A DNA stretch of 64,000 nt, taken from IMG/VR virus record IMGVR_UViG_3300032092_000005, positions 88,321 to 152,320 of that record, one strand, 5' to 3'. Origin of the DNA: a virus. The notes under the pieces were generated by a model. It was not told the DNA's origin, searched no databases, and saw only the letters and a program-made list of their open reading frames with translations. Below, one piece after another: positions 43,002 through 61,120 of the stretch; the stretch's first letter is position 1; each line of letters begins with the position of its first letter. The position numbers and the translations under genes were made by a program.

Positions 43002-43017
43002 GTTGCTTTTTTGCAAC
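43002..43017 (+). promoter_or_regulatory. GTTGC dyad 1 (upstream of the 43097 gene promoter)
   Basis: GTTGCTTTTTTGCAAC, a perfect dyad (GTTGC-N6-GCAAC). It starts 32 bp before the GTTG that contains the start of the -35 box. It is not followed by T residues on either strand, so it is an operator-like site and not a terminator. Confidence 0.65.
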
Positions 43018-43034
43018 AAAACCAAAAATAGTTG

Positions 43035-43062
43035 TTGACGGGACTGGCAAACCTGTTATTAT
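43035..43062 (+). promoter_or_regulatory. sigma70-type promoter of the OB-like protein gene
   Basis: TTGACG (43035-43040), 16-bp spacer, TATTAT (43057-43062). The leader (ATAGAGTCTTAGTGATTGAG) closely resembles that of the MoxR gene promoter at 45966. Confidence 0.75.
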
Positions 43063-43096
43063 AGAGTCTTAGTGATTGAGATTTAAGGATAACAGT

Positions 43097-43669
43097 ATGA
43101 ACCACATAGAACATCCAGACGCATATGCTGCCGCTACCAAGCGCAACATCATCATGAATGCCCGCACGACATTCTTCCGCACAGTTGCCGATGCACCTCA
43201 GATTATTGAGTACTTGGATCGTCAACCCGACCGTAACCAATTTGCGCAAAGCCTGCGTATGGCTCTTGACAACTATGGCAAGTTGACAGAAAAACAATGC
43301 CAAGCGGTTCGTAACTCTATGGAGCGTGAGGTACAGTGGAAGGCTGAGTACTTAGCTAAAGCCACCGCTGCTGCTGCAAGCCAAAAATTCGTTGGCGAAG
43401 TCGGCAAAAAGGTAACCCTTACTGTTACAGTTAAAAAAGAAATTATGGTTGACCGCCCGAAGTTTCATTACTACGATAGCGGTACATCCAACATTCGCCT
43501 TTGCCAGGATCAAGATGGCAATGTCATTGTATTCTCGGGCAATGCAGCCTTCCCACTTGAAGGCGAGACGGCTACCATCACTGCCACAGTAAAGTCTCAC
43601 CGCGTATACAGCCGCAACGGTGTAGACACTCCTCAAACTACGATAATTCGTCCCAAAATTGTTGCTTAA
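43097..43669 (+). CDS. OB-like protein of the MoxR-vWA block
   Basis: 190 residues from the ATG at 43097, which has AAGGA 8 bp upstream (the earlier TTG at 43076 lies in the leader). N-terminal half is helical (APQIIEYLDRQPDRNQFAQS, GKLTEKQCQAVRNSM). C-terminal half is a beta barrel pattern: FVGEVGKKVTLTVTVKKEI, QDQDGNVIVFSG, GETATITATVKSHRVYSRNG, then QTTIIRPKIVA. I know this C-terminal module from many phage and bacterial proteins but not its function; the strand order suggests an OB fold, so nucleic-acid binding is possible. Arg codons are mostly CGN and GC is higher than in flanking genes. It has its own promoter and dyad. Confidence 0.75.
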   Translation: MNHIEHPDAYAAATKRNIIMNARTTFFRTVADAPQIIEYLDRQPDRNQFAQSLRMALDNYGKLTEKQCQAVRNSMEREVQWKAEYLAKATAAAASQKFVGEVGKKVTLTVTVKKEIMVDRPKFHYYDSGTSNIRLCQDQDGNVIVFSGNAAFPLEGETATITATVKSHRVYSRNGVDTPQTTIIRPKIVA

Positions 43670-43676
43670 AAACAAC
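43661..43676 (+). promoter_or_regulatory. GTTGC dyad 2 (upstream of the vWA gene promoter)
   Basis: GTTGCTTAAAAACAAC, extended to a perfect 8-bp inverted repeat AATTGTTG-N8-CAACAATT at 43657-43680. It overlaps the stop of the OB-like gene and starts 22 bp before the GTTG of the -35, one helical turn closer than at the other three sites. Confidence 0.6.
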
Positions 43677-43683
43677 AATTCGG

Positions 43684-43712
43684 TTGCTTTTTTCTGGATG
43701 CTGGTGTATAAT
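43684..43712 (+). promoter_or_regulatory. sigma70-type promoter of the metallopeptidase-vWA gene
   Basis: TTGCTT (43684-43689), 17-bp spacer, TATAAT (43707-43712). The -35 lies inside GTTGCTTTTTT, a half-site of the shared dyad. Confidence 0.75.
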
Positions 43713-43740
43713 AAATACATAAATTCGAAAGACTGCCCTA

Positions 43741-45930
43741 ATGCTTGATACCAATATCTCCCGTTCCAATCTAGCTAAACTGTTAGCTACTGAGGACATT
43801 ACCGTATCTTATAAGAAGGTTGAAACGGCTTCGTTCAACCTTGTTACCCGCGAACTCATTCTCCCAATTTGGAATGACGTTACTCCTGAGATTTATGACC
43901 TGCTAGTTGGTCATGAAGTTGGTCACGCACTGGATACTCCTAGAGCATATCTGGATGCTGCTAATGCTGGTGGACGTAATTTTGCTACATTCCTGAACGT
44001 GATTGAGGATGCACGGATCGAACGTAAAATCAAAGTGCGCTACCCTGGACTGCGCAAGCCTATGGCTATTGCGTACCGTCAATTCATTGACCGCGATTTC
44101 TTCCAGATCAAAGGCAAGGACGTTTCTAAGCTCCTGCTAATTGACAGAATCAACCTACACTTCAAAGTCGGCGCATTTTCTGGCGTTAACTTCTCAGACA
44201 CCGAATTACCTTTTGTTAAGGAAATTGAAGCCGCTGAACGATTTGAACAGGTTAAAGATATCGCTACTCGCCTCTATTCATATTGCGAGGAAGAGTTAAA
44301 GCAAAAGCAGGAAGAGGCTGAGGATCGCCGTGCTAAACAACAGGAAGCTGGTGACGATTCTAATGGCGATTTTGGTTCCGACGATCAAATGGATGATCAA
44401 GATGATGACCAAGAAGAATCTCCTGTAGAAGATGGTGATTATTCCAATGAAGATGGTGACGATGGTGATTTTGATGAGGAAGATGCACCTGCTCCTTCTG
44501 GATGGTCGGCTGGCAAAATGGATGAAACCGATGAAACCATTGAAGACTACAAGGACGAGGTCAAGTCTCTGACTTCCGAAGCTTTGGAAAACAATCTGAA
44601 AGGCCTTGCTGAAACAAAAAACATTCAAGTCGGCAAATTGCCTTCTACAACAGACTTTGACCTGAAAGAAATTATCATTCCGTTCAAGGAACTTTCGTTT
44701 TTTGATCCAACATTTTACACTTCCGAATCGTATATGGCTGGTGCATTGAACGAATTCGAAACCAAAAACAAAAATGCTATTTCGTATTTGGTTAAAGAAT
44801 TTGAAATGAAAAAGAAGGCAGCCGAGTTGCGCCGTGTTACTGTAGCAGATTCTGGTACACTGAACACCAACAAGTTGCATTCTTACAAATTCAATGACGA
44901 TATCTTCCGTAAGATTGGTTCTATTGCTGCTGGTAAGAATCACGGCATTGTTCTGTTTGTTGACTGGTCTGGCTCTATGCAAGACAACATGCAAGGTACC
45001 ATTGAGCAATTGCTTACATTGACTACCTTCTGCCGTAAAGTTAATATTCCGTTTGATGTATATGCATTCACTACCGGCTTTGTTAAGAAATCTCTGATTG
45101 ATCGCCTGAAGAATGATGGTGATGAAAATACGTTGGAACTTAATGCTTTTGGGTTGATGAACATTCTTTCTAGCAACATGAAAAACCAAACTTACAAAAA
45201 GTTTGCTAATGACTTGTTGAATTTTGCCTCTGCTATGGCGAACCTATATTTAAAAGATGGTCGCCGTAATTACGCTAGAAACTACATTACGGATGATCAT
45301 GGTCTTGGCGGCACTCCTTTGAATGCAACTATCATGGTTGCAAGCGAGGTTGTTAATGCTTTCCGTGTTAAAAATAAGTGCGAGATTGTGAATGTAGTTT
45401 TTCTGACTGACGGTGAGGACAACTCTAACATCTGGACTAATGGTGATAGAAATTCTCCATACGGATACGCTACTAGAAAGATGATCGGTGCGGGCGACAA
45501 AGGCAATGTAAGCTATGTTGAGGATAAAGTTTCTCGCAAAACATATCGTGTTGGCTATAGAGGCATTACACCAACTTTGCTTAATGTATTGAAGGACAAT
45601 ACACAATGCAATTTGATTGGCTTCTACATTATCGCTAAGAAAAAAACTCATTTCGATAATGCTGGTGTGCGCCTCGGTGTAAAAAACTTGGTCGATGGAT
45701 ACACATCATTCAAGGCTGACAAATTTTTCAGCATTACTGATTATGGATATGATGAATACTTTTTGATTCCTGGCGGTTCTGACTTGTCGACCGATGATGA
45801 TTCTCTGGAAGATATCGTTGGCAAGGAAGCAGTAACTACCCGTAAACTGCGTGGTGCATTCCTCCAGATGAACCAAAACCGCTTGCTGAACCGGGTTTTA
45901 CTGTCAAAAGTGATCAAAAAGCTTGCTTAA
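43741..45930 (+). CDS. zinc metallopeptidase-like plus vWA domain protein
   Basis: 729 residues. N-terminal gluzincin-like motif HEVGH at 58-62 with a likely third ligand in NVIEDARIE (Glu89). A long acidic linker (about 187-270) follows. A C-terminal von Willebrand A domain starts near 400, with MIDAS DWSGSM at 408-413, GGTPLNAT later, and FLTDGED. This layout resembles the CobT-like partners of MoxR or CobS AAA+ ATPases, and the next gene encodes such an ATPase. Together they probably form a metal-dependent chaperone or remodelling machine, perhaps with proteolysis. CGN arginine codons and GC differ from neighbouring phage genes. Alternative: the HExxH site may be structural. Confidence 0.85.
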   Translation: MLDTNISRSNLAKLLATEDITVSYKKVETASFNLVTRELILPIWNDVTPEIYDLLVGHEVGHALDTPRAYLDAANAGGRNFATFLNVIEDARIERKIKVRYPGLRKPMAIAYRQFIDRDFFQIKGKDVSKLLLIDRINLHFKVGAFSGVNFSDTELPFVKEIEAAERFEQVKDIATRLYSYCEEELKQKQEEAEDRRAKQQEAGDDSNGDFGSDDQMDDQDDDQEESPVEDGDYSNEDGDDGDFDEEDAPAPSGWSAGKMDETDETIEDYKDEVKSLTSEALENNLKGLAETKNIQVGKLPSTTDFDLKEIIIPFKELSFFDPTFYTSESYMAGALNEFETKNKNAISYLVKEFEMKKKAAELRRVTVADSGTLNTNKLHSYKFNDDIFRKIGSIAAGKNHGIVLFVDWSGSMQDNMQGTIEQLLTLTTFCRKVNIPFDVYAFTTGFVKKSLIDRLKNDGDENTLELNAFGLMNILSSNMKNQTYKKFANDLLNFASAMANLYLKDGRRNYARNYITDDHGLGGTPLNATIMVASEVVNAFRVKNKCEIVNVVFLTDGEDNSNIWTNGDRNSPYGYATRKMIGAGDKGNVSYVEDKVSRKTYRVGYRGITPTLLNVLKDNTQCNLIGFYIIAKKKTHFDNAGVRLGVKNLVDGYTSFKADKFFSITDYGYDEYFLIPGGSDLSTDDDSLEDIVGKEAVTTRKLRGAFLQMNQNRLLNRVLLSKVIKKLA

Positions 45931-45932
45931 AT

Positions 45933-45948
45933 GTTGTAAAAAAGCAAC
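45933..45948 (+). promoter_or_regulatory. GTTGC dyad 3 (upstream of the MoxR gene promoter)
   Basis: GTTGTAAAAAAGCAAC, the reverse complement of GTTGCTTTTTTACAAC. It differs from dyad 1 by one base and starts 32 bp before the GTTG of the -35. Confidence 0.65.
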
Positions 45949-45968
45949 GGTTTGCAAAATAACCGTTG
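45945..45968 (+). promoter_or_regulatory. palindrome overlapping the MoxR promoter -35
   Basis: Perfect inverted repeat CAACGGTT (45945-45952), 8-bp spacer, AACCGTTG (45961-45968). Its left arm shares CAAC with dyad 3 and its right arm contains the TTG of the -35 box. It is not followed by a T tract, so an operator is more likely than a terminator. Confidence 0.6.
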
Positions 45969-45994
45969 ACTCTCCGCAAGAACCATGGTATAAT
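45966..45994 (+). promoter_or_regulatory. sigma70-type promoter of the MoxR gene
   Basis: TTGACT (45966-45971), 17-bp spacer, perfect TATAAT (45989-45994), 33 bp before the ATG. Confidence 0.8.
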
Positions 45995-46027
45995 AGAGTT
46001 TAGATTGATTGATTTACAAGGTTTATT

Positions 46028-47248
46028 ATGATTACCACTCAAGAAAAAATTGCGTTTATTACCGAAGCTTCCAAACGCTACGGCGCTACAGTTACCCGCC
46101 AACAATTGCGGGACATGATGGCAGAAGGCATCATCAAGCGCCAAATCTGGTTTGAATGCAATAAATACAGGTGTGGTCGTGCCGAGTATGCACTACCCTT
46201 TGAGGAATTCTCCCTCACCCCTCCTTCTGGTATCGTTTCCAATGCGCCCATTGAAACGGTAGAAAATGTAGTACCTATGGCTAAAAAAACAGAATCGGCT
46301 CCAGTAGTAGCCAAAGCGCCAACCCGCATTTCGTCCGTTCAACGGATGCAAGAGGGAGCTATCATTCCTAAAGTGAATGACTTGTATGTGCCGTTCGGCT
46401 TTTTCGATAACATGAAACGGATCGTAGGCTCACGCCGTTTCTATCCTGTGTTTGTTTCTGGTCTGTCTGGTAACGGCAAGACTTTCATGGTAGAACAAGC
46501 CTGTGCGCAACTCAAGGTAGAATGCCTCCGTGTGAATATCTCTCCTGAAACGGATGAGGATGACTTGATCGGCGGCTTCCGTTTGATTGACGGTGAGACA
46601 AAATGGTTTGACGGTCCTGTCGTGCAAGCTATGAAGTCTGGTGCAGTCCTGATTCTGGACGAAATTGACCGCGGCTCTAATAAGCTTATGTGTCTGCAAG
46701 GCGTTCTGGAAGGTAAAGGTCTTTTCGTTAAGAAGACTGGCGAATTCGTAGAGCCTGTGACTGGCTTCAACGTTATCGCTACTGCTAACACAAAGGGCAA
46801 GGGCGATGACAGCGGTCGGTACATGGCAGCTACAATCCTTGATGATGCGTTCCTAGAGCGTTTCCCTATCACGGTTGAGCAGGAATATCCTGACGTTAAA
46901 GTAGAGACTAAAATTCTCACCAAACTGTTCACTAGCCTCGGCATCAAGGATAAAGTATTCGCCGAAAATCTGGTGAAGTGGGCTGATATCATCCGTAAGA
47001 CTTTCGAGGAAGGTGCTATTGATGAATTGATTTCTACTCGCCGTTTGTCTCACATTGCCGAAGCTTACACTATCTTCAACAATAAGATGGAAGCCATTCG
47101 CTACTGTATCAACCGCTTTGATGCCGAGACTAAGACTTCATTCTTGGACTTGTACACCAAGATCGATGCTGAGACTAACATGCCAGCGCAGTCGGCACCT
47201 TCGACAGTGCCAACGCAGGCAGTAGAAGATGAAGAAATTCCTTTTTAA
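46028..47248 (+). CDS. MoxR/CobS-type AAA+ ATPase
   Basis: 406 residues. The N-terminal ~55 residues look like a small helical DNA-binding-type domain (ATVTRQQLRDMMAEGIIKRQ, CNKYRCGRAEYAL), then a flexible linker to ~115. The AAA+ core has Walker A GLSGNGKT at 145-152, Walker B LILDEIDRG near 208-216, sensor 1 IATANTKGKGD at 250-260 and the arginine-finger region LDDAFLERFPI. The MoxR/CobS style and the vWA gene just upstream form the classic ATPase-vWA pair. High GC and CGN codons match the upstream two genes. The C-terminus is acidic (VEDEEIPF). A terminator follows. Confidence 0.9.
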   Translation: MITTQEKIAFITEASKRYGATVTRQQLRDMMAEGIIKRQIWFECNKYRCGRAEYALPFEEFSLTPPSGIVSNAPIETVENVVPMAKKTESAPVVAKAPTRISSVQRMQEGAIIPKVNDLYVPFGFFDNMKRIVGSRRFYPVFVSGLSGNGKTFMVEQACAQLKVECLRVNISPETDEDDLIGGFRLIDGETKWFDGPVVQAMKSGAVLILDEIDRGSNKLMCLQGVLEGKGLFVKKTGEFVEPVTGFNVIATANTKGKGDDSGRYMAATILDDAFLERFPITVEQEYPDVKVETKILTKLFTSLGIKDKVFAENLVKWADIIRKTFEEGAIDELISTRRLSHIAEAYTIFNNKMEAIRYCINRFDAETKTSFLDLYTKIDAETNMPAQSAPSTVPTQAVEDEEIPF

Positions 47249-47266
47249 TTAGCTGAATTATCTCAG

Positions 47267-47293
47267 AGGACCACTTGTAAGTGGTCCTTTTTT
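47267..47293 (+). terminator. rho-independent terminator after the MoxR gene
   Basis: Stem AGGACCACT (47267-47275) and AGTGGTCCT (47280-47288), 4-nt loop, then a run of T to 47293. It closes the MoxR-vWA block. Confidence 0.85.
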
Positions 47294-47303
47294 CATATAT
47301 AAT
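47275..47303 (+). promoter_or_regulatory. sigma70-type promoter embedded in the terminator
   Basis: TTGTAA (47275-47280), 17-bp spacer, TATAAT (47298-47303). The -35 lies in the loop of the preceding terminator. It would drive the glycosyltransferase and sliding-clamp genes. Confidence 0.6.
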
Positions 47304-47336
47304 AGTGTATGATATTTTTTAACATGTGGAGAAATA

Positions 47337-48176
47337 ATGGAAATTGAACTGAATCTTGAACAACTAAGAGGTAAGAAAATCTTTTTGGCTACACCTATGT
47401 ACGGTGGACAATGTCATGGATCATATACCAAATCTATTGCAGACTTAATGGTAATCTGCACCCAACATGGAATTCAACTTAAGTTGTTTTACTTGTTTAA
47501 CGAATCCCTAATTACTCGCGCACGAAACTATCTTGCCGATGAATTTTTGCGGAGTGATTTTGATCATTTGGTTTTTGTTGATAGCGATATCCAATTTGAA
47601 CCTTATGACATTCTTGTTATGCATCACTACGCAATTAACAATCCTAATATGGGCGTTGTTTGCGGTCCATATCCAAAGAAAGCAATTTCTTGGGAGAAGA
47701 TCAAGATGGCAGTCGATAAAGGATATGCTGACAGAGACCCACAAGTCCTAGAAGACTTTGTTGGTGACTTTGTATTCAATGCAATTGACGGTATTGAAAA
47801 ATTCAGCGTAGAAGAACCAGTACAAGTAAAAGAAGGCGGCACTGGATTCATGCTTATCAAGCGTGAAGTATTCACAAACTTTGATGCAATGTGGCCTGAA
47901 CGTTCGTACAAACCAGACCACGCACGTACTGTTAACTTTGATGGCAGTCGTGAGATTATGGCATACTTTGATTGTGTCATTGATCCAGAATCTAAGCGTT
48001 ACCTGTCTGAGGACTATATGTTCTGCCAGTATGCTAGAAAATCTGGCTCAGAAGTATGGATGCTACCGTGGCTCAAACTGAAACACGCAGGCACATTTAT
48101 CTTTGGCGGTTCACTTGCAGCTATGGCAGCAATCGGTGCGTCAGCAACAGCAGATAGAAACTCACCAAAACGATAA
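47337..48176 (+). CDS. GT-A-type glycosyltransferase-like protein
   Basis: 279 residues. It starts KKIFLATPMYGGQCHGSYTK, then NESLITRARNYLADEFLRSD and the metal motif DSD at 82-84 (HLVFVDSDIQFEP). A second acidic motif is in RYLSEDYMFCQYARK, followed by LPWLKLKHAGT. These features match phage family-2-like glycosyltransferases. The substrate is unknown: DNA base, virion or host-surface glycan. It is a second glycosyltransferase besides the TAGT-like one at 41055. It opens the operon that includes the clamp gene. Confidence 0.8.
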   Translation: MEIELNLEQLRGKKIFLATPMYGGQCHGSYTKSIADLMVICTQHGIQLKLFYLFNESLITRARNYLADEFLRSDFDHLVFVDSDIQFEPYDILVMHHYAINNPNMGVVCGPYPKKAISWEKIKMAVDKGYADRDPQVLEDFVGDFVFNAIDGIEKFSVEEPVQVKEGGTGFMLIKREVFTNFDAMWPERSYKPDHARTVNFDGSREIMAYFDCVIDPESKRYLSEDYMFCQYARKSGSEVWMLPWLKLKHAGTFIFGGSLAAMAAIGASATADRNSPKR

Positions 48177-48181
48177 TCAAA

Positions 48182-48463
48182 ATGGCACCAGATTATAAAT
48201 TTGGTGAAGATGTGATCCTTCAAGAACTGAAGGATTACATTGATGCTACCTACAATCTACACTATGCAAGAACCAAATTTCAAGCTACAGAGTTTATTAT
48301 CGACTCTGGACATGGAGAAGGCTTTGCGCTAGGCAATATTATGAAGTACACACAGAGGTATGGTAAGAAGAATGGCAAGAACAAAGCAGACTTGCTAAAG
48401 ATTCTCCACTATGCTATAATGGCTATGCATGTACACAAAACAAATGAAGAAGGAAAATTATGA
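48182..48463 (+). CDS. DUF3310-type protein
   Basis: 93 residues with the DUF3310 signature: GFALGNIMKYTQRYGKKNGK, then ADLLKILHYAIMAMHVH. Members are widespread in phages and are sometimes labelled nucleotide kinases, without good evidence and without a P-loop here. The structure is likely all helical. It overlaps the sliding clamp gene by ATGA, so it is expressed with replication proteins. Confidence 0.8.
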   Translation: MAPDYKFGEDVILQELKDYIDATYNLHYARTKFQATEFIIDSGHGEGFALGNIMKYTQRYGKKNGKNKADLLKILHYAIMAMHVHKTNEEGKL

Positions 48464-49131
48464 AACTCAGTGAAGCTACAATAAATGTTCTAAAGAACTT
48501 TTCAACAATCAATACAGGACTTGTATTCAAACAAGGCAATGTATTGCGCACAATCTCTAAAGGACAAACTGTTCTCGCTAAGGCAACTATTCCAGACAGC
48601 TTTGATCATGAATTCACTATCTATGACTTGAATCGGTTCTTGTCTTTGATCGGTACTCTTGACTTACCTGAACTAGCTTTCAAAGAAGGCGAAAAGACTA
48701 TCAAGGTTGTATCTGGTAAATCTAAGACTACTTATGGGTTGTCTGACGAATCTATGGTTGTTGCACCTCCAGCTAAAGATATCAAGATTGAAAATCCAGA
48801 AGTGAGTTTCATTTTGACTAAAGATGACCTTGCTCAGGTATTACAAATGGCTGGTATATTGGGCCTTCCTAATATTGCATTGCGAGGTGATCGAAACAAA
48901 ATGACCCTTGTTGCATTAGATGTAAAGAATGTCGATTCAGACGTTTTCTCGGTTGAAGTCGGCACTACTACAGCAGAATTCGAGGCATTGTTTGTTACTG
49001 AAAATTTAAAGATGGTTCCCGCGGACTATAATGTCACAATCTCTTTTAAGGGAATTTCACACCTCAAGCACACTACTGAACCAATAGAATACTGGTTAGT
49101 CCTTGAGCCAAAATCCAACCACGCAGAGTAA
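48460..49131 (+). CDS. gp45: sliding clamp gp45
   Basis: 223 residues, T4 gp45-like (T4: 228). Typical start MKLSEATINVLKNFSTINTG and LVFKQGNVLRTIS; then PDSFDHEFTIYDLNRFLSLI, LPNIALRG, and a C-terminal half with KMVPADYNVTISFKGIS. The trimeric ring gives gp43 its processivity and, in T4, activates late transcription through gp55 and gp33. Clamp-loader genes 44 and 62 lie downstream. Confidence 0.93.
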   Translation: MKLSEATINVLKNFSTINTGLVFKQGNVLRTISKGQTVLAKATIPDSFDHEFTIYDLNRFLSLIGTLDLPELAFKEGEKTIKVVSGKSKTTYGLSDESMVVAPPAKDIKIENPEVSFILTKDDLAQVLQMAGILGLPNIALRGDRNKMTLVALDVKNVDSDVFSVEVGTTTAEFEALFVTENLKMVPADYNVTISFKGISHLKHTTEPIEYWLVLEPKSNHAE

Positions 49132-49134
49132 CTC

Positions 49135-49524
49135 ATGGAGAAACTGTTAATTAAAGTACCAGTCTCTCTTGGAGAACTTGTCGATAAGATTACTATTCTT
49201 AGGATCAAACAGGCATGTATGACAGATGAAGAAAAACTGTCTAACGTAACGCATGAATATAATATGCTTGTTGCTATTCCAGAATACGTTGCAGTTAAAG
49301 ATACCATTGCATCACAAGAAGCGGAATTACATAAAGTTAATCAGCGCCTCTGGTATTATGAAGAAGATATCCGCGACTTTGATAAACTGGAAAGTCCAAA
49401 TATATTTGCACTCATGAGAGTTGCAAAGGGCATTCACACCACAAATGATGAACGTAGCCAAATCAAAAAAGAAATCAATATTATGTGTAACTCTGAACTA
49501 GTAGAGGAAAAATCCTATGAGTAA
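49135..49524 (+). CDS. DUF6165-type protein
   Basis: 129 residues. The pattern VSLGELVDKITILRIKQ, EEKLSNVTHEYNML, ELHKVNQRLWYYEEDIRDFD and ERSQIKKEINIM...EEKSY matches DUF6165, helical proteins common in phages and often near sugar or surface-glycan genes in bacteria. Function unknown. It starts 3 bp after the clamp gene and overlaps dsbA by 8 bp. Confidence 0.75.
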   Translation: MEKLLIKVPVSLGELVDKITILRIKQACMTDEEKLSNVTHEYNMLVAIPEYVAVKDTIASQEAELHKVNQRLWYYEEDIRDFDKLESPNIFALMRVAKGIHTTNDERSQIKKEINIMCNSELVEEKSYE

Positions 49525-49786
49525 TGTTATCGTCCCATCTTCACCTGAAGACAGAAAGAAAATCAAAGATGCATTGATTGAAATTTCATCATCACTCACT
49601 CGCATGGAAGCAGAACGTGATTTGATCAAGGACATTCTTGCTGAAGTAGAAGATAAATTTGAGTTGCCTAAGAAGTATATTCGCAAGCTTGCTAAGATTT
49701 ATCATAAGCAAAACTACGCTGAGATTCGCCAAGAGCAAGATGACGTAGAGACTCTATACGAAACTGTGACTGGACCAGCAGCATGA
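49517..49786 (+). CDS. dsbA: dsDNA-binding late transcription protein DsbA
   Basis: 89 residues, the same length as T4 DsbA. The C-terminal half aligns by eye with T4 DsbA: ERDLIKDILAEVEDKFELP, then IRKLAKIYHKQN and DDVETLYETV. In T4 it binds double-stranded DNA at late promoters. It lies next to the clamp gene, which fits a link to late transcription. ATGA-type overlaps on both sides. Confidence 0.82.
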   Translation: MSNVIVPSSPEDRKKIKDALIEISSSLTRMEAERDLIKDILAEVEDKFELPKKYIRKLAKIYHKQNYAEIRQEQDDVETLYETVTGPAA

Positions 49787-50130
49787 CAGTAAATACTAAG
49801 CGAAGTTTTCTAAGAGGCGCAGGATTATTTGGACTCATTGCTGGTATTGGCAGTGCAGCAGCAGCGGAATCTTTGACTGCTTCATTACCAGAAGTAAAAG
49901 AAGATATTAGTCATCTAGCGCCGCCACAGAATGCTACTACTATTCAATTTACAGGCGCATATGGCAAACAGCCAGAGCCTCAACCCGTGAGTGCCACATG
50001 TGGCAATTCTTTTTACATTAACGGATTCAATCAAGAAACGACACACAAAGTATGTATGTCTGTTGGACTTGACAATCGCCTTTGGCTAAAAGTTGGTGAT
50101 GAATGGCGCCGTGTCGCATTGGAATCTTAA
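49783..50130 (+). CDS. exported protein with a Tat-like signal
   Basis: 115 residues. The N-terminus TKRSFLRGAGLFGLIAGIGS followed by AAAAES looks like a twin-arginine-type signal peptide with a KR pair in place of RR, a hydrophobic core and an Ala-rich cleavage region. The mature part (~85 residues) is beta-like: TTIQFTGAYGKQP, ATCGNSFYINGFNQETTHKV, CMSVGLDNRLWLKVGDEWRR. Two Cys could form a disulfide in the periplasm. It overlaps dsbA by ATGA. A secreted product inside a replication operon is unusual. Function unknown. Confidence 0.7.
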   Translation: MTVNTKRSFLRGAGLFGLIAGIGSAAAAESLTASLPEVKEDISHLAPPQNATTIQFTGAYGKQPEPQPVSATCGNSFYINGFNQETTHKVCMSVGLDNRLWLKVGDEWRRVALES

Positions 50131-50138
50131 CATTGTGT

Positions 50139-50167
50139 TTGCATTCTAACATCGCCTGTGTTACAAT
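50139..50167 (+). promoter_or_regulatory. sigma70-type promoter upstream of gp44
   Basis: TTGCAT (50139-50144), 17-bp spacer, TACAAT (50162-50167). An inverted repeat ACATCGCCT (50149-50157) and AGGTGATGT (50172-50180) brackets the -10 box, a possible operator. Confidence 0.65.
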
Positions 50168-50205
50168 ACGTAGGTGATGTTACACTATTATTATGAGGTA
50201 TATTG

Positions 50206-52449: not shown

Positions 52450-52450
52450 A

Positions 52451-52885: not shown

Positions 52886-52886
52886 C

Positions 52887-52979: not shown

Positions 52980-53207
52980 ATGGCATTTGTAAAATCAAAC
53001 AAAACTCAGGCAGAACTCTTGATATCGTATTTGCGCGGCAAGGGCCGTGGCATTACTGCACCTCAAGCTAACGCATTGTTCGGCGTAAAGAATCTACGCG
53101 CACGTATGAGCGACCTCCGCATGGAAGGCTTCAAGGTTCGCACTTCTCTAAACACAGAAGGACGTACAAAATATTACGTATCACGCCGTAAAATCGGTCA
53201 AGCCTGA
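52980..53207 (+). CDS. small winged-helix/HTH protein
   Basis: 75 basic residues: NKTQAELLISYLRGKGRGIT, then APQANALFGVKNLRARMSDL and RMEGFKVRTSLNTEGRTKYYV. This matches the HTH_39-type helix-turn-helix (helices, then a wing). Likely a DNA-binding regulator or recombination accessory. It has a near-consensus sigma70 promoter of its own and is followed at once by a late promoter and a structured RNA. A GAAAGG ribosome site precedes it. Confidence 0.8.
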   Translation: MAFVKSNKTQAELLISYLRGKGRGITAPQANALFGVKNLRARMSDLRMEGFKVRTSLNTEGRTKYYVSRRKIGQA

Positions 53208-53215
53208 TATAAATA
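53208..53215 (+). promoter_or_regulatory. late promoter upstream of the structured RNA and hsp20
   Basis: Exact TATAAATA immediately after the HTH stop codon. Transcription from it would start at or near the first hairpins of the leader RNA at 53216-53400. Confidence 0.75.
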
Positions 53216-53400: not shown

Positions 53401-53420
53401 TCGCTTAATAGGAGAAAACT

Positions 53421-53915
53421 ATGACAGACTTTAAAATCGGTAAAATCTCATTTGGTCCAGCATTCAAAGACTTTGATAAATATTTCGTAGGCTTTGAAGA
53501 TCAACTGAACCACATGCAAAAGCTTCACGCTGATGTAACAAAACACATTCCCGGATATCCTCCATACAACATCAAGAAGACTGGTGATAATACATACAGT
53601 ATTGAACTTGCGGTTGCTGGATTCGCACAAAGCGAAATTGATATCGAAATTGATGATGGTAAACTTATCGTCAAAGGCAATGTAGCTTCAAAAGAAAATG
53701 AAAAAGAAGAAGACTTCTTATTCAAAGGTATTGCTAATCGTGGGTTCACTCGCGCATTCGCTATCGCTGATCAATTTGAAGTTAAAGACGCAGAGCTATT
53801 CAATGGTATGCTAAAGATCGTTTTAGATCGTTTGGTGCCAGAAGAAAAGAAGCCAAAAAAAGTGCCAGTAAAGACTAAAGGCAGCAAGCAATATTTGACG
53901 GAAGAAGATTTATGA
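53421..53915 (+). CDS. small heat shock protein Hsp20 (IbpA-like)
   Basis: 164 residues. Alpha-crystallin domain at ~50-140: YPPYNIKKTGDNTYSIELAV, AGFAQSEIDIEIDDGKLIVK, EEDFLFKGIANRGFTRAFAI, FEVKDAELFNGMLKIVL. The N-terminal ~45 residues are aromatic-rich and the tail is Lys/Pro-rich. It is an ATP-independent chaperone that holds unfolding proteins. Phage Hsp20s are common in cyanophages and may aid virion protein folding. It is preceded by a late promoter, the structured leader and AGGAGA. It overlaps the next small gene by ATGA. Confidence 0.92.
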   Translation: MTDFKIGKISFGPAFKDFDKYFVGFEDQLNHMQKLHADVTKHIPGYPPYNIKKTGDNTYSIELAVAGFAQSEIDIEIDDGKLIVKGNVASKENEKEEDFLFKGIANRGFTRAFAIADQFEVKDAELFNGMLKIVLDRLVPEEKKPKKVPVKTKGSKQYLTEEDL

Positions 53916-54082
53916 TAACTACTATCTTAAATTCACTTTCAAATGTCGTATCATTTATTTTACGTGACAGAACTCAGACATTAGAGCAATACATCATTGC
54001 AAATAATCCTCAGGACGCCGCAGAAGTAGAATATTTAGAACGCCAATACAGTATGCGTAATTCACTAGGAAGACTTATCTAA
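53912..54082 (+). CDS. DUF3563-like small protein
   Basis: 56 residues, ATGA overlap with hsp20, ending TAA at 54080-54082. Sequence: ITTILNSLSNVVSFILRD, then LEQYIIANNPQDAAEVEYLE and RQYSMRNSLGRLI. The D-AAEVE-LERQY pattern resembles DUF3563, small helical proteins found in proteobacteria and phages. Function unknown. Confidence 0.65.
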   Translation: MITTILNSLSNVVSFILRDRTQTLEQYIIANNPQDAAEVEYLERQYSMRNSLGRLI

Positions 54083-54099
54083 TAGTGAACAACACACAA

Positions 54100-54123
54100 G
54101 GGTGCCACTCGGCACCCATTTTT
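54100..54123 (+). terminator. rho-independent terminator after the hsp20 operon
   Basis: Stem GGGTGCC (54100-54106) and GGCACCC (54111-54117), loop ACTC, then ATTTTT. Perfect 7-bp GC-rich stem. Confidence 0.85.
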
Positions 54124-54139
54124 ATTATAGGATTATAAA

Positions 54140-54439
54140 ATGAGCGAACTTAGAATTTTAAAATTGATTTCTGGTGAAGAAATTGTCGGTGATATTTTAT
54201 CAGACACCGCAGATGGTGTACTAATTCAAGACCCATGCAGTTTAGGACTTATGCAAAGTCCAACAGGCCCAAGACTAAACATGATGCCGATGTTAATTTT
54301 CTCTGAACAGAAAAAGGTACAACTTCAAAAATCACACATCATCTACATAGTTACGGTTGCACAAGAGATACAAAACAAGTATAATGAGATATACGGTTCA
54401 GGAATCATCCTGCCAAAACCATCGGCAATTATTAAATAA
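54140..54439 (+). CDS. small Sm-like protein upstream of the polymerase gene
   Basis: 99 residues: LRILKLISGEEIVGDILSD, then DGVLIQDPCSLGLMQSPTG, RLNMMPMLIFSEQKKVQLQ and SHIIYIVTVAQEIQNKYNEI. The opening K-L-x-x-G-E-x-I-V-G parallels the 35517 protein and fits an Sm-like fold. Its stop overlaps the gp43 start by one base, so it is co-translated with DNA polymerase. In T4 the polymerase gene is translationally autoregulated, so an RNA-binding neighbour would be interesting, but that is inference. Confidence 0.65.
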   Translation: MSELRILKLISGEEIVGDILSDTADGVLIQDPCSLGLMQSPTGPRLNMMPMLIFSEQKKVQLQKSHIIYIVTVAQEIQNKYNEIYGSGIILPKPSAIIK

Positions 54440-56937
54440 TGAAATTTTATACAAACTTTAGCAAGTACGGCAACACAATCCTCGTCCGAGGTTACGACAA
54501 CGGACGTAGGTTTGCAGAAAGATTGAACTACAATCCTACGCTATACTTGCCATCGCGTGAAGCAACCAAATTCACTACACTAGATGGCTCATATGTTGCT
54601 CCTGTAAAGCAGGGTACAATGAGTGACGCAATGGAGTTTGTTAAAAAATATGATAGTGTCGATAACTTTTCTATCTATGGATCAACTAACTTTCAATACG
54701 TATGCATTGATGAAGAATATCCAGGTAAGCTTGACTATGATCGGTCGTTGATCAGAGTTGCAAACATTGACATTGAGGTTGGCTCAGAGAATGGATTTCC
54801 TGAGCCTGCTAGTGCTAGTGAAGTAATCACTGCAATTACTTTCAAGATTGATGACCACTATCATGTGTTCGGTTGTGAATTCTTTATGCATGAACGCAAA
54901 GATGTTACTTACTACGAATGTAACAATGAAGTTGCATTGATCATGAAGTTTCTTGAGCTATGGGAAATCACTTCACCTGATATTGTGACTGGTTGGAATG
55001 TCCAGTTCTTTGATATTCCATATCTTATCAATCGGATCAATCGACTTCTTGGTGAAGAAACTGCAAAGCGCCTGTCTCCTTGGAAGCGTATCAGTACTCG
55101 CAACGCAATAATCATGAACCGTGAGGAGATTGAGTATGAACTTGTTGGAATTACGGTGCTTGACTACCTTAAGCTATACAAGAAGTTTACTTACTCACAA
55201 CAAGAAAGCTTTAGACTAGATCACATCGCATTCATTGAACTCGGTGAACGCAAGCTCGACTATTCTGAGGTAGAGAATCTACACCAACTGTACAAGACAA
55301 ACTTTCAAAAGTTTATTGAGTACAACATTCATGACGTTGAACTTGTTGACAGAATTGACAATAAGATGCAATTGATTGACATGGCACTTGCACTTGCATA
55401 TGACGCTAAGGTGAACTACGGTGACGTATTCACGCAGGTGCGCATGTGGGACACATTGATTCACAATGAACTGCTAGAGCGTGGCATTGTTGTGCCGCAG
55501 AACGTTAGCACTCCAAAGAATGCGCAGTATGCTGGTGGTTATGTTAAAGATCCAATTGTTGGCAAGCATGAATGGGTTGTGTCATTTGACTTGAACAGTC
55601 TGTACCCGCACTTGATCATGCAGTATAATATTTCTCCTGAGACACTGGTGCAAGGCAAGCATGTTTCTATTACAGTTGATAATTTACTGAACAGCAAATA
55701 TGACATTGAAGATGAATATTGCATGGCAGCAAACGGACACTTCTTTAAGCGTGACAAGCAAGGCTTCTTGCCTGCAATGATGGAACGCATGTACAATGAC
55801 CGATCAATGTACAAAAAGAAAATGATTCAATCTCAGAAAGACTATGAAGCAGCAACTACTCCTGAAGCAAAGCGCAAAGAGAGCTATCAGATTTCGAAAT
55901 ACAAGAATCTCCAGTTAGCTAAGAAGGTTCAATTGAACTCAGCTTACGGTGCATTAGGCAATGAGTACTTTCGATTCTTTGACATTCGCCAAGCAGAAGC
56001 TATTACTCTATCTGGTCAGTTAGCTATTCGTTGGATTGAAAATGAAATGAATGGATACCTGAACAAACTTCTAAGCACAGAAAACGTTGACTATGTTATT
56101 GCATCCGATACTGATTCGATCTATGTACACCTTGGTCCTCTTGTGCAAAAGGTGTACGGTGCTGATGGCAAAGTTTCTATTCCAAAAGAAAAGATTGTAG
56201 AGTTTATCGACAAGGTGTGTGAGCAAAAGCTTCAACCGTTTATTGATAAGTCATACCAAAAGCTTGCTGATAACATGAATGCATTTGATCAAAAGATGCA
56301 GATGAAACGTGAATCGATTGCAGACACTGGAATCTGGACTGCAAAGAAGCGATACATCCTGAACGTATGGGATAATGAAGGTGTTCGCTATGCAAAGCCT
56401 AAGCTTAAGATGATGGGTATCGAAGCAGTGAAGTCTTCTACACCAGCATCATGCCGTGATAAGATTAAAGAAGCACTTGAGTTGATCATAACTGGTACCG
56501 AAAAAGAGTTTCAAGCATTCAATGCAAAATTCAAAGAAGAGTTTAAGACACTGCCATTTGAATCGGTTGCGTTTCCTAGAGGCGTAAGTGAGTTGACTAA
56601 ATATAGTGATAACGTGTCGCTATACGGCAAAGGTACTCCTATTCATGTTCGTGGTTCTCTAGTGTATAACAACCTATTGAAGAAGCATAAGCTTGAGAAG
56701 AGATATCAGCCTATCAAAGATGGCGACAAAGTTAAATTTTGCTATATGAAAGTTCCAAACCCAACACAAGAAAATGTCCTGTCCGTAGTGAACATGTTGC
56801 CAAAAGAAATGCAGCTTGAGAAGTATATTGATTATGATCTGCAATTCGATAAAGCTTACATTGATCCTATGAAAAGCATTGTGACTACGTTCGGATGGAA
56901 TACGGAACATAAATCAAACTTACTAGGATTTTTCTAA
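54439..56937 (+). CDS. gp43: DNA polymerase gp43 (family B)
   Basis: 832 residues (T4: 898). Exonuclease motifs: D111-I-E113 (exo I), WNVQFFD to D192 (exo II), YNIHD with Asp299 (exo III). Polymerase motifs: A DLNSLYP at 384-390, B KKVQLNSAYG at 495-504, C SDTDS with Asp557 and Asp559. C-terminal NLLGFF is a clamp-binding peptide candidate for gp45. It replicates the genome with proofreading. No intein or split is present. Confidence 0.97.
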   Translation: MKFYTNFSKYGNTILVRGYDNGRRFAERLNYNPTLYLPSREATKFTTLDGSYVAPVKQGTMSDAMEFVKKYDSVDNFSIYGSTNFQYVCIDEEYPGKLDYDRSLIRVANIDIEVGSENGFPEPASASEVITAITFKIDDHYHVFGCEFFMHERKDVTYYECNNEVALIMKFLELWEITSPDIVTGWNVQFFDIPYLINRINRLLGEETAKRLSPWKRISTRNAIIMNREEIEYELVGITVLDYLKLYKKFTYSQQESFRLDHIAFIELGERKLDYSEVENLHQLYKTNFQKFIEYNIHDVELVDRIDNKMQLIDMALALAYDAKVNYGDVFTQVRMWDTLIHNELLERGIVVPQNVSTPKNAQYAGGYVKDPIVGKHEWVVSFDLNSLYPHLIMQYNISPETLVQGKHVSITVDNLLNSKYDIEDEYCMAANGHFFKRDKQGFLPAMMERMYNDRSMYKKKMIQSQKDYEAATTPEAKRKESYQISKYKNLQLAKKVQLNSAYGALGNEYFRFFDIRQAEAITLSGQLAIRWIENEMNGYLNKLLSTENVDYVIASDTDSIYVHLGPLVQKVYGADGKVSIPKEKIVEFIDKVCEQKLQPFIDKSYQKLADNMNAFDQKMQMKRESIADTGIWTAKKRYILNVWDNEGVRYAKPKLKMMGIEAVKSSTPASCRDKIKEALELIITGTEKEFQAFNAKFKEEFKTLPFESVAFPRGVSELTKYSDNVSLYGKGTPIHVRGSLVYNNLLKKHKLEKRYQPIKDGDKVKFCYMKVPNPTQENVLSVVNMLPKEMQLEKYIDYDLQFDKAYIDPMKSIVTTFGWNTEHKSNLLGFF

Positions 56938-57338
56938 TGTCAAACATACCACAAGAGTATCTAACAATTCGCCATGAAGAAGATTTTGGATTTAGCGCAG
57001 TAGATGAAATTGAACTCAAGCAGGTCACCGACACAAACACGCTAGAGACAAAGGTCATTCGTGAAACTGTATCGTCATCAAGCGAAGCAGTCACTCGCCT
57101 TGAAGAGAAGGTCGATTCTATTCTACAGCTATACAAAGATGGCAAGCTAGGGCTAGAAGCCGAACGCACAGAGTTATTAGCTACAACTTCAGGCAAGCTA
57201 AAAGAGCTAGAGCAAATTATTATGCCTTTGCTTATCAATCTAATGAAGACGCCAGACAAAGAATACATTTACTGGCCCAATCGTAAAGATAAAATTCAAG
57301 AGCAGATCGACAAGATTCTAGCTATCACTAGGGCGTAA
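56937..57338 (+). CDS. hypothetical helical protein between gp43 and a membrane protein gene
   Basis: 133 residues, not recognised. Mostly helical with a probable coiled coil (SSSSEAVTRLEEKVDSILQL, LEAERTELLATTSGKLKELE) and a C-terminus DKIQEQIDKILAITRA. The opening IPQEYLTIRHEEDFGFSAVD is conserved-looking. One-base overlap with the gp43 stop and 1 bp before the membrane protein gene, so it may work with one of them. Confidence 0.65.
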   Translation: MSNIPQEYLTIRHEEDFGFSAVDEIELKQVTDTNTLETKVIRETVSSSSEAVTRLEEKVDSILQLYKDGKLGLEAERTELLATTSGKLKELEQIIMPLLINLMKTPDKEYIYWPNRKDKIQEQIDKILAITRA

Positions 57339-57339
57339 T

Positions 57340-58206
57340 ATGGGATTCGTTCTTCTATTATTTTTCAATGCATTGCTATTGTCTAGTATCGCAGCGTACT
57401 ATTCAATCGCAGGCTTGATTGCTATATTCTCAGCAGCACCTCTATCCATCGCAATGATGGGCGGTTCACTAGAGCTTGCTAAACTTGTAACAGTTAGTTG
57501 GCTCTATAGAAACTGGAATGATGCGCCTAGAATAATGAAATACTACTTCACCGTAGCAGTAGTCGTTTTGATGTTCATCACTTCATTAGGTATCTTTGGA
57601 TTCTTATCTAAAGCACACACTGAACAAGGAAGCGCAAACTCAAATATTACTGCACAGATTGAAATGATTGATGATAAGATAAGAGTTGAAAAGGAAATTA
57701 TTGATGATAATCGCAAAGCACTCAAACAACTTGATGAATCTGTGGACCAAACTATGGGTCGCACAAAAGATGAAAAGGGTGCCACTCAAGCATCTCAATT
57801 ACGCAAAGCCCAACAAAAAGAGCGTACTAGAATATCTTCGGATATTTCAGAAGCACGAAAGAAAATTGCAGAGTATAATGTGGAGAGATTTCCACTGGAA
57901 ACCGAAACCCGAAAGCTTGACGCCGAAGTTGGTCCAATCAAGTACATTGCAGCCTTGGTGTATAGCGAAAGCGAAAGCGAAGATGATAAAGCATCAATCG
58001 AAAGGGCTGTTCGATTTATAATCATACTGCTAGTTTCCGTTTTTGATCCGATGGCAGTCTTGCTAATCATTGCAGCTAACTACAATCTGAATCTTTTGGC
58101 ACGTAAGAGGGAGTATTTACAAACGGCAACTATCGATCCTATTCCAATGGAAAAGAAAGAAGTTGATGCACATAGGATGTACCATAGGGATCAAGACTCT
58201 ATGTAA
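57340..58206 (+). CDS. multi-span membrane protein with a long coiled coil
   Basis: 288 residues. Hydrophobic segments at about 2-20, 22-42, 66-90 and 226-250 suggest four membrane spans. Residues ~95-215 form a long charged coiled coil (IEMIDDKIRVEKEIIDDNRK, LRKAQQKERTRISSDISEAR), which by simple topology lies on one side of the inner membrane between spans 3 and 4. GSLELAKLVTVSWLYRNW is a striking conserved-type motif in span 2-3. I know similar proteins from marine phages but no function. It could act in lysis control, exclusion of other phages or replication anchoring (speculative). Confidence 0.75.
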   Translation: MGFVLLLFFNALLLSSIAAYYSIAGLIAIFSAAPLSIAMMGGSLELAKLVTVSWLYRNWNDAPRIMKYYFTVAVVVLMFITSLGIFGFLSKAHTEQGSANSNITAQIEMIDDKIRVEKEIIDDNRKALKQLDESVDQTMGRTKDEKGATQASQLRKAQQKERTRISSDISEARKKIAEYNVERFPLETETRKLDAEVGPIKYIAALVYSESESEDDKASIERAVRFIIILLVSVFDPMAVLLIIAANYNLNLLARKREYLQTATIDPIPMEKKEVDAHRMYHRDQDSM

Positions 58207-58208
58207 AT

Positions 58209-58237
58209 TTGACAGGATAGGTTATTAATGATATAAT
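58209..58237 (+). promoter_or_regulatory. consensus sigma70 promoter of uvsX
   Basis: Perfect TTGACA (58209-58214), 17-bp spacer, perfect TATAAT (58232-58237), 34 bp before the uvsX ATG. The strongest host-type promoter in the window. Confidence 0.88.
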
Positions 58238-58271
58238 GTGTTTAGCGCATTTTTTATAAAGGTGAATAATA

Positions 58272-59345
58272 ATGGGTAATTTTTTTACAGACTTAGTTGA
58301 TCAGTTGAAAGATGAAGATACGAAAATTCTTGCTGATGGTGATGCGTCAGCAGAATTTAGTGGAAGCATTGACACTGGATCATACGCATTGAACGCACTG
58401 CTATCTGGCAGTATCTATGGTGGCGTTCCCAACAACAAAGTGACAGCATTCGCAGGTGAATCTTCAACAGGTAAAACGTTTTTTGTCTTGGGTGTTGTTA
58501 AGCAATTCTTAGATGACAATCCAGATGCTGGCGTAATTTACTTTGATTCCGAAGCAGCAGTCACAAAACACATGATGGAATCTAGAGGCGTAGATACGAA
58601 GCGGGTTGTTATCTCTGAGCCAGATACAATTCAGAAGTTCCGTCATACTGCACTCCAGATCATTGAGAAGTACGCAGCACAAAAAGAATCAGCACGTAAG
58701 CCTATGATGATGGTTCTAGATTCTCTTGGTCAGCTATCATCTACAAAAGAGATGGAAGACACCTCAGAAGGTAAAGAGACTAGGGACATGACAAAGAGCC
58801 AAACTCTTAAAGCTACATTCCGCGTATTGAATTTAAAGCTTGCTAAGATTGGTGTTCCTTTGCTTGTAACGAACCACGTTTATGATGTTGTCGGTGCATA
58901 CTTCCCAACTAAAGAAATGTCTGGTGGTTCTGGCTTGAAGTACACAGCATCCACAATCGTGTATCTGTCTAAGAAGAAAGACAAAGATGGCACAGATATT
59001 GTTGGTAACATTGTAAAAGCAAAGCTACAGAAAAGCAGACTAACAAAAGAAAATTCGTTTGTTGAAATTAAGATCACCTACAGCAAGGGCTTAGATCGCT
59101 ACTACGGACTGCTAGAAATTGCAGAGAAGTATGGCATCATTAAAAAAGTCTCTACTCGCTATGAGCTATCTAATGGCGTAAAGGTCTTCGGAAAGAATAT
59201 CAATGAAGAACCTGAAAAGTATTACACTAAAGAAATTCTAGACCAAATCGATGAAGCTTGCAAGAAAGAGTTCTTGTACGGACAAGATGTTATTGGCGGC
59301 GCAAGAGTTGATGAGGACGAAGCGGAGTTAGAACATGCTAATTGA
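58272..59345 (+). CDS. uvsX: UvsX RecA-like recombinase
   Basis: 357 residues. RecA-fold core: Walker A GESSTGKT at 62-69 ([15 protein letters not shown]), Walker [14 protein letters not shown], then [19 protein letters not shown], a DNA-binding loop region. It forms filaments on ssDNA and catalyses strand exchange for recombination-dependent replication. T4 UvsX is 391 residues. Overlaps the next gene by 11 bp. Confidence 0.94.
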
Positions 59346-59676
59346 TATCGACTATGCAGTTACTCAAGAGGATATCAAGTACAAAGACAAAGATGTTGTT
59401 GCAGCTATCGAAATTCTAAAAGGCGATTTTGCAAGTGTTAAGTTTTACTTCGGTGAGTTAAACTTTGCCGAAGAAGAGAATCCAGATGGTACCTTTTCAA
59501 TCAGCTTCAACTATGATATAATAGGTGAAGAGAACGAATGGCTTAGAGGAAAAGAAGAGTTCGAAGTGGTACTTGGTCGCATTTTAAACGACCTGCTAAG
59601 ACATTCCTTAGACATGGCACAACAGAGGTATGATAATGAGTCTGGAAAAGAAAATACTGAAACACATCCTGAATGA
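59335..59676 (+). CDS. hypothetical acidic protein between uvsX and gp41
   Basis: 113 residues, acidic alpha-beta: [40 protein letters not shown], then [20 protein letters not shown]. Overlaps uvsX by 11 bp and gp41 by 41 bp. It occupies the slot where some T4-like phages carry a small uvsX-linked gene of unknown role. No catalytic motif. Confidence 0.7.
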
Positions 59677-61054
59677 TGATGGATATGTACGTAAAACATT
59701 ACCTTTTATAAAGTCAGAATATTTCACAGAAGCTTCCGAAAAGATTGTATTCAATCACGCATTTGACTACTACACAAAGTATAACGCACTGCCTACAGTT
59801 GAAGCACTTATCATTGAGATAGATGCTAAGAAGAACATTTCGGAAGATCAATACAAAAAAGTCCTTTCGCTAATTACAGAGATAAATTCTGAGGAGTATT
59901 CTCCTCAGGATACTGATTGGTTAGTTGACCAGACAGAGAAGTTTTGCCAAGACAAAGCTATCTACAATGCTATCATGCAAAGCATTACGATTCTGGATGA
60001 GCATGAAACTTCTAAGCTAGACAAAGGCGCTATCCCAGGCATTCTATCGGATGCTTTGGGTGTGTCGTTTGACAATCACGTTGGTCACGATTTCATTGAA
60101 GACGCAGAATCTCGCTATGAGTTCTATCATAGAGTTGAAGAGCGTATTCCATTTGACCTCGACTATCTAAATCGAATCACAAAGAACGGTCTTCCTAAAA
60201 AGACGCTGAACATTATTCTTGCAGGCACTGGTGTCGGTAAGAGTTTGTTTATGTGCCATTGTGCAGCAGCTAATCTTACACTTGGTAAGAACGTCCTATA
60301 CATTACACTTGAAATGGCAGAGGAACGAATTGCTGAACGTATTGACGCTAACCTATTGAACGTTGACCTAGATAAACTTGTTGCGTTGCCTAAAGATAGT
60401 TATCTGAAAAAGATTGCAAGGATGAAAGAGAAGGCACTTGGTCGATTGATCATCAAAGAATATCCTACAGCATCGGCTAGTGCAACACACTTCAAACACT
60501 TACTCAGTGAATTGAAACTCAAGCGCAAGTTTATACCTGATATTATCTATATTGATTATCTAAATATATGTTCTTCTTCTAGAGTTAAATCTGGTAATAA
60601 TGTAAACTCATATACTCTTGTTAAATCTATTGCAGAAGAATTACGTGGACTTGCAGTTGAATTTAATGTGCCTATTATGTCAGCTACACAAACTACTCGC
60701 GGTGGTTATGATAACTCTGACGTAGGTATTACTGATACGTCAGAATCATTTGGTCTGCCAGCTACAGCAGACTTTATGGTTGCATTAATATCTACAGAAG
60801 AGTTGGCAGAAATGAATCAGATTATGGTAAAGCAATTAAAGAATAGATATTCTAATCCTGATACTAATAAGAGATTCGTTATTGGCGTAGATAAAGCTAA
60901 GATGAAACTATATGATTCCGAAGATAATGCGCAGAATAATATCTCAGATAGTGGACAAATTCACGACAATAAAGATACTGAACCAGTATTCGATAAAAGC
61001 GCATTTGGTAAACGAATGACTGCACAAAGAGATTTCAGCAGAGTTAAAGTTTAA
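59636..61054 (+). CDS. gp41: replicative helicase gp41 (DnaB-like)
   Basis: 472 residues from the ATG at 59636, chosen because AGAGG (59624-59628) gives 7-bp spacing (the ATG at 59630 is too close). RecA-like core: Walker A GTGVGKS at 197-203 (LAGTGVGKSLF), LEMAEERIAERIDANLL, Walker B IIYIDYLNI, and SATQTTRGGYDNSD. The N-terminal ~150 residues are the helical collar. The hexamer unwinds the fork 5' to 3' and recruits primase gp61. T4 gp41 is 475 residues. Confidence 0.95.
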   Translation: MSLEKKILKHILNDDGYVRKTLPFIKSEYFTEASEKIVFNHAFDYYTKYNALPTVEALIIEIDAKKNISEDQYKKVLSLITEINSEEYSPQDTDWLVDQTEKFCQDKAIYNAIMQSITILDEHETSKLDKGAIPGILSDALGVSFDNHVGHDFIEDAESRYEFYHRVEERIPFDLDYLNRITKNGLPKKTLNIILAGTGVGKSLFMCHCAAANLTLGKNVLYITLEMAEERIAERIDANLLNVDLDKLVALPKDSYLKKIARMKEKALGRLIIKEYPTASASATHFKHLLSELKLKRKFIPDIIYIDYLNICSSSRVKSGNNVNSYTLVKSIAEELRGLAVEFNVPIMSATQTTRGGYDNSDVGITDTSESFGLPATADFMVALISTEELAEMNQIMVKQLKNRYSNPDTNKRFVIGVDKAKMKLYDSEDNAQNNISDSGQIHDNKDTEPVFDKSAFGKRMTAQRDFSRVKV

Positions 61055-61058
61055 TTTT

Positions 61059-61074
61059 GTTGTTTTTTCGCAAC
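61059..61074 (+). promoter_or_regulatory. GTTGC dyad 4 (upstream of the 61150 operon promoter)
   Basis: GTTGTTTTTTCGCAAC, 4 bp after the gp41 stop codon. It starts 32 bp before the GTTG of the -35 box, exactly as for dyads 1 and 3. Confidence 0.62.
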
Positions 61075-61091
61075 AGCTATGAAAATACCTG

Positions 61092-61120
61092 TTGCTTTTT
61101 TTGGTGAAGCATGTTATAAT
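61092..61120 (+). promoter_or_regulatory. sigma70-type promoter of the 61150 operon
   Basis: TTGCTT (61092-61097) inside GTTGCTTTTTTT, 17-bp spacer, perfect TATAAT (61115-61120). Confidence 0.78.

Follow-up and report, generated by a model that had tools for sequence, protein, structure and literature searches.

The window considered here is a stretch of 64,000 nucleotides (nt) of virus DNA, corresponding to positions 88,321-152,320 of the 152,320 bp record IMGVR_UViG_3300032092_000005, and the remainder of the record was also scanned. The record belongs to a T4-like phage on the evidence of its proteins for the head, packaging and replication, and the closest isolates among those found are cyanophages and Pelagibacter phages. 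The element in question is a dyad, GTTG-N8-CAAC, that precedes a subset of the sigma70-type promoters of this phage and may be the operator of a common regulator. The window holds four such dyads, listed here with their promoters (distances run from dyad start to -35 box) and the genes that follow, with protein lengths in amino acids (aa).

43002-43017, + strand: dyad GTTGCTTTTTTGCAAC, 5' of the promoter for the open reading frame 43097-43669
43035-43062, + strand: promoter TTGACG (43035-43040), 16 bp spacer, TATTAT (43057-43062); distance 33 bp
43097-43669, + strand: 190-aa gene, called OB-like in the initial annotation; PHROG 27218, function unannotated
43661-43676, + strand: dyad GTTGCTTAAAAACAAC; overlaps the preceding gene's stop codon
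43684-43712, + strand: promoter TTGCTT (43684-43689), 17 bp spacer, TATAAT (43707-43712); distance 23 bp
43741-45930, + strand: 729-aa vWA-type gene, PHROG 459 'peptidase'
45933-45948, + strand: dyad GTTGTAAAAAAGCAAC, immediately 3' of the vWA gene stop
45966-45994, + strand: promoter TTGACT (45966-45971), 17 bp spacer, TATAAT (45989-45994); distance 33 bp
46028-47248, + strand: 406-aa MoxR/CobS-like AAA ATPase gene
61059-61074, + strand: dyad GTTGTTTTTTCGCAAC, immediately 3' of the stop of a DnaB-like helicase gene
61092-61120, + strand: promoter TTGCTT (61092-61097), 17 bp spacer, TATAAT (61115-61120); distance 33 bp
61150-61452, + strand: 100-aa gene leading the 61150 unit; no family above the curated cut-off

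The initial annotation had reported dyads at 43002, 43661, 45933 and 61059, and these are exactly the four GTTG-N8-CAAC sites of the window, where 1.29 would be expected. The sigma70-type promoters with 16-17 bp spacers that it described 3' of each dyad have the boxes and spacers claimed, and its distances of 32, 22, 32 and 32 bp, counted to a G, equal 33, 23, 33 and 33 bp when the -35 hexamer's first T is taken as the end point. It also stated correctly that the promoters at 33557, 47275, 50139, 52887 and 58209 are without a dyad, as the best match there has 3-5 mismatches. Its placing of two -35 boxes inside half-sites needs correcting: pairing of the -35 box with a third half-site, or a second dyad there, was rejected because its frequency across phages is at chance.

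Over the whole record, 14 GTTG-N8-CAAC sites were found against 2.6 ± 1.5 expected (first-order Markov model), and the tighter form GTTGY-N6-RCAAC, expected 0.9 times under the same model, fits all 14. A sigma70-like promoter lies 23-59 bp 3' of the dyad at every one of them, compared with 4.4% for a random position (p ~ 1e-19). The regulon would be larger than the four units proposed, as ten more sites lie outside the window, at record positions 24,920-45,923, mostly before small genes of unassigned function. No dyad was found at the terminase, portal, major-head (window 22-33 kb), polymerase or clamp-loader genes of the record. When aligned, the 14 dyad promoters have strong near-consensus sigma70 boxes and an A-rich element just 5' of the -35 (AAAATAGT). 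This element and the dyad are separable, since Pseudomonas phage Amme-3 (PP496413.1, 91431-91486) has a AAAATAGTTGTTGACA promoter segment between tRNA genes that is without a dyad. Two further promoters outside the window, with -35 boxes starting at record positions 29236 and 35561, carry TGTGAC-N6-ACAACA, that is, a variant left half and a perfect right half.

Scanning of the genome and its relatives with the dyad pattern, as the initial annotation had advised, found the dyad to recur in promoter-linked form in the record and in other phages. Checked for being common in coding sequence or lost in relatives, it proved promoter-linked at 14/14 record sites and kept upstream of MoxR in 47 of 72 sequences, a count that includes the window; both outcomes favour the initial reading. 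Among the relatives' MoxR promoters that keep the dyad its half-sites are invariant and its distance to the -35 changes, whereas most of the 25 sequences lacking it are from relatives that have diverged further; one of the 25, the long relative G002, nevertheless has dyads elsewhere. Tight-form dyads are promoter-linked at 8/9 sites in G001 and 8/8 in G002, both long relatives, and at 8/12 in G017 (345 kb), 8/10 in G020 and 11/12 in G024, which are more distant phages (p 1e-8 to 1e-12 in these five genomes). A contig binned as Bacteroidetes LaPlata_bin-2831 has four dyad promoters in 7.4 kb, and probably belongs to a phage, having been misbinned into the metagenome-assembled genome (MAG) of a bacterium.

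A scan of IMG/VR for the dyad together with a strict promoter gave at least 187 non-redundant promoter-linked sites among the matches listed, with the consensus TGTTGY-N6-RCAACA, an N6 of 86% AT and an AA/TT centre. The form GTTGY-N6-RCAACA fits 116/128 viral-contig sites among the matches listed. Over the 187 sites, pairing outside TGTTG/CAACA is no better than with shuffled partners (z -1.5 to 1.9), Y and R are independent of each other (T..A 76, C..A 55, T..G 37, C..G 12), and the A-tract is found in both orientations (126/61). The central two bases avoid pairing (0.12 vs 0.35, z -7.3) because they are AA or TT in 133/187 sites. Independent half-sites around an A-tract core look like the footprint of a dimeric DNA-binding protein with direct and indirect readout and, together with flanking complementarity at chance, argue for a DNA operator for a dimer over an RNA hairpin or terminator, since the reverse pairing pattern would be expected of an RNA stem.

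The same data bear on a reading of the dyad as an RNA element, namely a stem-loop that ends the upstream transcript as a terminator or processing site. The window dyads either overlap the stop codon of the gene before them or begin no more than ~10 nt from it, and extended stems with T runs occur in Achromobacter phage Motura and contigs L139, L181 and L208, both of which would suit such an element. Pairing at chance beyond TGTTG/CAACA and inside Y/R, with C..A mismatches at 55/187 sites, does not, and nor do the promoters at all sites of this phage or those dyads of G001 and G002 that follow a distinct terminator-like stem and its T run. On these patterns of letters the RNA-element reading appears largely refuted and has only a very slight probability, and the claim that the dyads are not terminators is borne out by the lack of stem covariation over 187 sites and by the promoter at every site in this phage. 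The extended stems and T runs of Motura and the few contigs indicate that in some phages, though not as a rule, dyad and terminator may overlap.

The PeSL cassettes of T4-like phages combine an early promoter with a stem-loop/terminator in a plastic genome region and, as far as the cited account goes, resemble the present sites as intergenic early promoters with an inverted repeat that recur in such a region (Arbiol 2010 and Comeau 2014, through PMC4503421). On that account a PeSL has a stem-loop/terminator (PMC4503421), whereas the dyad shows no stem covariation and its half-site letters are fixed. BLAST of the promoter sequences against isolate phages returned weak pieces only and pointed to Motura. 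At positions 34083, 55731, 86663 and 95237 of Motura (NC_049849.1) the same dyad core is embedded in stems of greater length, such as CCCAGTGTTG...CAACACTGGGTTTTT, after which comes a -10-like element that lacks a clear -35, and terminator-promoter cassettes are possible there. In addition, six contigs (L135, L140, L157, L198, L207 and L242) have an inverted repeat, GCCCTGT...ACAGGGC or a like sequence, in which the right arm takes in the end of the -35 TTGACA, forming a terminator-like stem that overlaps the promoter 3' of the dyad; some of its spacers are T-rich.

The distance between dyad and -35 box had been described as a fixed helical phase, and this applies to most promoters of this phage and not to its relatives. 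Here the distance is 32-34 bp at 11 promoters and 23, 42 and 59 bp at the others. The proposed conservation of the 32/22-bp spacing gave way to lineage-specific preferences, which are ~33 bp in this phage, 29 in G002, 26-27 in G017, 23 in G020 and 24 in G024. Even the orthologous MoxR promoters, in 29 distinct versions, have distances of 18, 20, 30, 31, 32 and 33 bp. Outlier distances are about one turn apart in some cases (24/33 in G024; 27/37/47 in G017) and not in others (54). Over the 187 sites the distance ranges from 16 to 47 bp and a pooled test for phase gives p=0.09, so helical phasing as a general rule was rejected; it is a local fact of this phage and not a demonstrated rule. Variable distance would suit an insulator or roadblock, in which a bound protein halts upstream read-through and shields the downstream promoter, and so would the recurrent order of stop codon, dyad and promoter. 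In compact intergenic regions, however, any upstream promoter element falls into that order, and this explanation seems highly unlikely.

The centre of the dyad has a median of -57.5, with 80% of sites between -65 and -50, and lies at about -60 in this phage, which fits the site of class I activators (about -61, with contact to the C-terminal domain of the alpha subunit, alpha-CTD). The one-face rule of such activators is followed in most promoters here (23/33/42, one 59) and not across lineages (p=0.09). The activator site of P2/P4 is centred near -55 to -60. Apart from this closeness to the P2/P4 position of -55, TGTTGY-N6-RCAACA holds TGT-N12-ACA exactly and is shared by several separate promoters, much as a TGT-N12-ACA dyad is common to several separate late promoters of P2 that are served by Ogr (PMC3931495). 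There are also differences from P2 Ogr and P4 Delta: the dyads precede promoters with -35 boxes, in this phage they serve mainly small non-structural genes rather than late structural operons, and the T4-like phages studied here are unrelated to P2. Furthermore, the Ogr_Delta zinc finger (PF04606) was over its cut-off in 0/13 dyad phage records, so that an Ogr_Delta protein was rejected as the regulator and the dyad phages are not members of that system.

In the parts of the literature cited, T4-type early promoters have an A-rich, UP-like sequence 5' of strong sigma70 boxes, and so share with the present promoters those boxes, an A-rich element and many small unassigned genes; the same accounts describe them with the UP-like sequence, not with a dyad at -60 (PMC2988021, PMC1524935). 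Phage RB49 has no GTTGY-N6-RCAAC site. The MotA box of T4 middle promoters is likewise a DNA box specific to the phage and joined to a host -10 promoter; the cited account places it at -30, where it stands in for the -35 (PMC2988021), whereas the promoters studied here retain their -35 and have the box at about -60. The dyad is an element of known kind that apparently forms an undescribed family, with broad distribution.

The presence of the same dyad in T4-like, jumbo and other phages, and of a palindrome with the same core in intergenic regions of Motura, could mean that unrelated phages have recruited a transcription factor or nucleoid protein of the host. Against this, no genome among 185 sampled Gammaproteobacteria had the dyad with a strict promoter, and in 274 Gammaproteobacteria it occurred by itself at most three times per genome, with no host-like regulon, although the phage hosts may lie outside that sample. 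A scan of bacterial genomes for dyad plus promoter gave mostly chance-like matches (22/120 with the strong form, compared with 116/128 of the viral-contig sites), and a host protein as the binder is an unlikely explanation. In four Planctomycetes/Phycisphaerae MAGs (L311, L324, L346 and L353), GTTGYTTTTTTGCAACAT lies 24 bp 5' of TTGACA-18-TATAAT, and a gene of ~364 aa, similar among the four and PAS-like by eye at its N-terminus, has its start codon only 7-8 nt past the -10, as for a leaderless mRNA.

The best candidate for a regulator, on correlative evidence of co-occurrence, is encoded within the window and is the HTH protein that the initial annotation had put forward.

52980-53207, + strand: 75-aa winged helix-turn-helix (HTH) protein, candidate dyad reader; Pfam HTH_39 (PF14090), E 6e-9

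Its HTH_39 match scores 36.1 bits against a curated cut-off of 21.3, and its predicted fold is a small winged helix (H-H-H-E-E; predicted local distance difference test, pLDDT, 77). A fold search gave weak, generic winged-helix matches (MarR/ArsR-type regulators, DriD), and a PDB profile search with HTH_39 gave none. One copy of HTH_39 is present in 12/16 dyad-bearing virus records and in 10/11 of those of at least 100 kb, where the exception, G021, has one dyad. It was also found in 7/9 MoxR-relative fragments tested, being missing from the dyad-less G005 and from G009, a fragment that does carry dyads. Three records with chance-like dyads are also without HTH_39, and it was over the cut-off in 0/12 isolate phages (ten controls, Motura and one Pseudomonas phage). 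The small proteins tested that several phage lineages share (RNaseH-like, MazG-like, dCMP deaminase and an 86-aa CxxxxCxxC protein) yielded no further candidate for sequence-specific DNA binding. The 86-aa protein, at 40016-40276 of the window, has 79%, 68% and 45% identity to its counterparts in three distant phages and belongs to PHROG 4499, function unannotated.

As the initial annotation had suggested, one DNA-binding regulator common to the separate units is the best explanation of a promoter-linked, sequence-specific dyad, and this part of its interpretation is well supported. The dyad, with its A-tract core, would be the operator of one dimeric and probably phage-encoded protein, built into a subset of sigma70-type promoters that mostly precede small non-structural genes. 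Its centre at about -50 to -65 is where class I activators touch alpha-CTD of RNA polymerase, which makes co-activation of the dyad promoters at one infection stage the most likely mode of action. The TGT-N12-ACA layout and centre, as in P2 Ogr sites, also favour activation, and the slightly weaker core boxes of MoxR promoters with the dyad agree (1.96 mismatches vs 1.22 without it, p=0.008, kinship ignored). What the sequences show is the dyad with its consensus, independent half-sites, promoter linkage and spread among phages. We infer that a protein binds the dyad, that HTH_39 is the putative binder and that it activates rather than represses; the whole proposal, with HTH_39 as reader, has in our judgement about an even chance of being right.

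Several points weigh against this proposal. The core boxes are near consensus, so that strict dependence on an activator is not needed, and the lack of helical phasing across lineages is unusual for a class I activator. Pelagibacter phages that have no promoter-linked dyad also give weak HTH_39-like matches, and because of these and the kinship of the phages, which confounds the co-occurrence, the link between HTH_39 and dyad stays a correlation. Moreover, the recognition helix of HTH_39 differs between phages with identical dyads. Repression through the same operator is also conceivable, with an early phage protein at -50 to -65, or beside the -35, later silencing strong promoters: near-consensus core promoters, dyads that abut the -35 in some phages (distance 16-20) and the lack of general phase, which fits occlusion or alpha-CTD blocking, all suit a repressor. 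Most sites are, however, too far 5' for a direct block of sigma contact, and among orthologous promoters it is those with the dyad that are the weaker, which leaves repression as a real, if rather unlikely, alternative to the activator.

Very little is known of how uncultured large phages control transcription, and one strongly defined operator in many environmental phages offers a handle to predict co-regulated genes from sequence alone. It also helps in finding the regulator and in calling such promoters in metagenomic phages, and gives a concrete candidate function to HTH_39/PHROG 4973, which is listed as unknown in PHROGs. More tentatively, and with rather low probability, HTH_39 and one operator may form a regulatory currency common to large environmental phages of several lineages. 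If this is true, gene cassettes with a dyad promoter would come under the same control in any phage that they enter.

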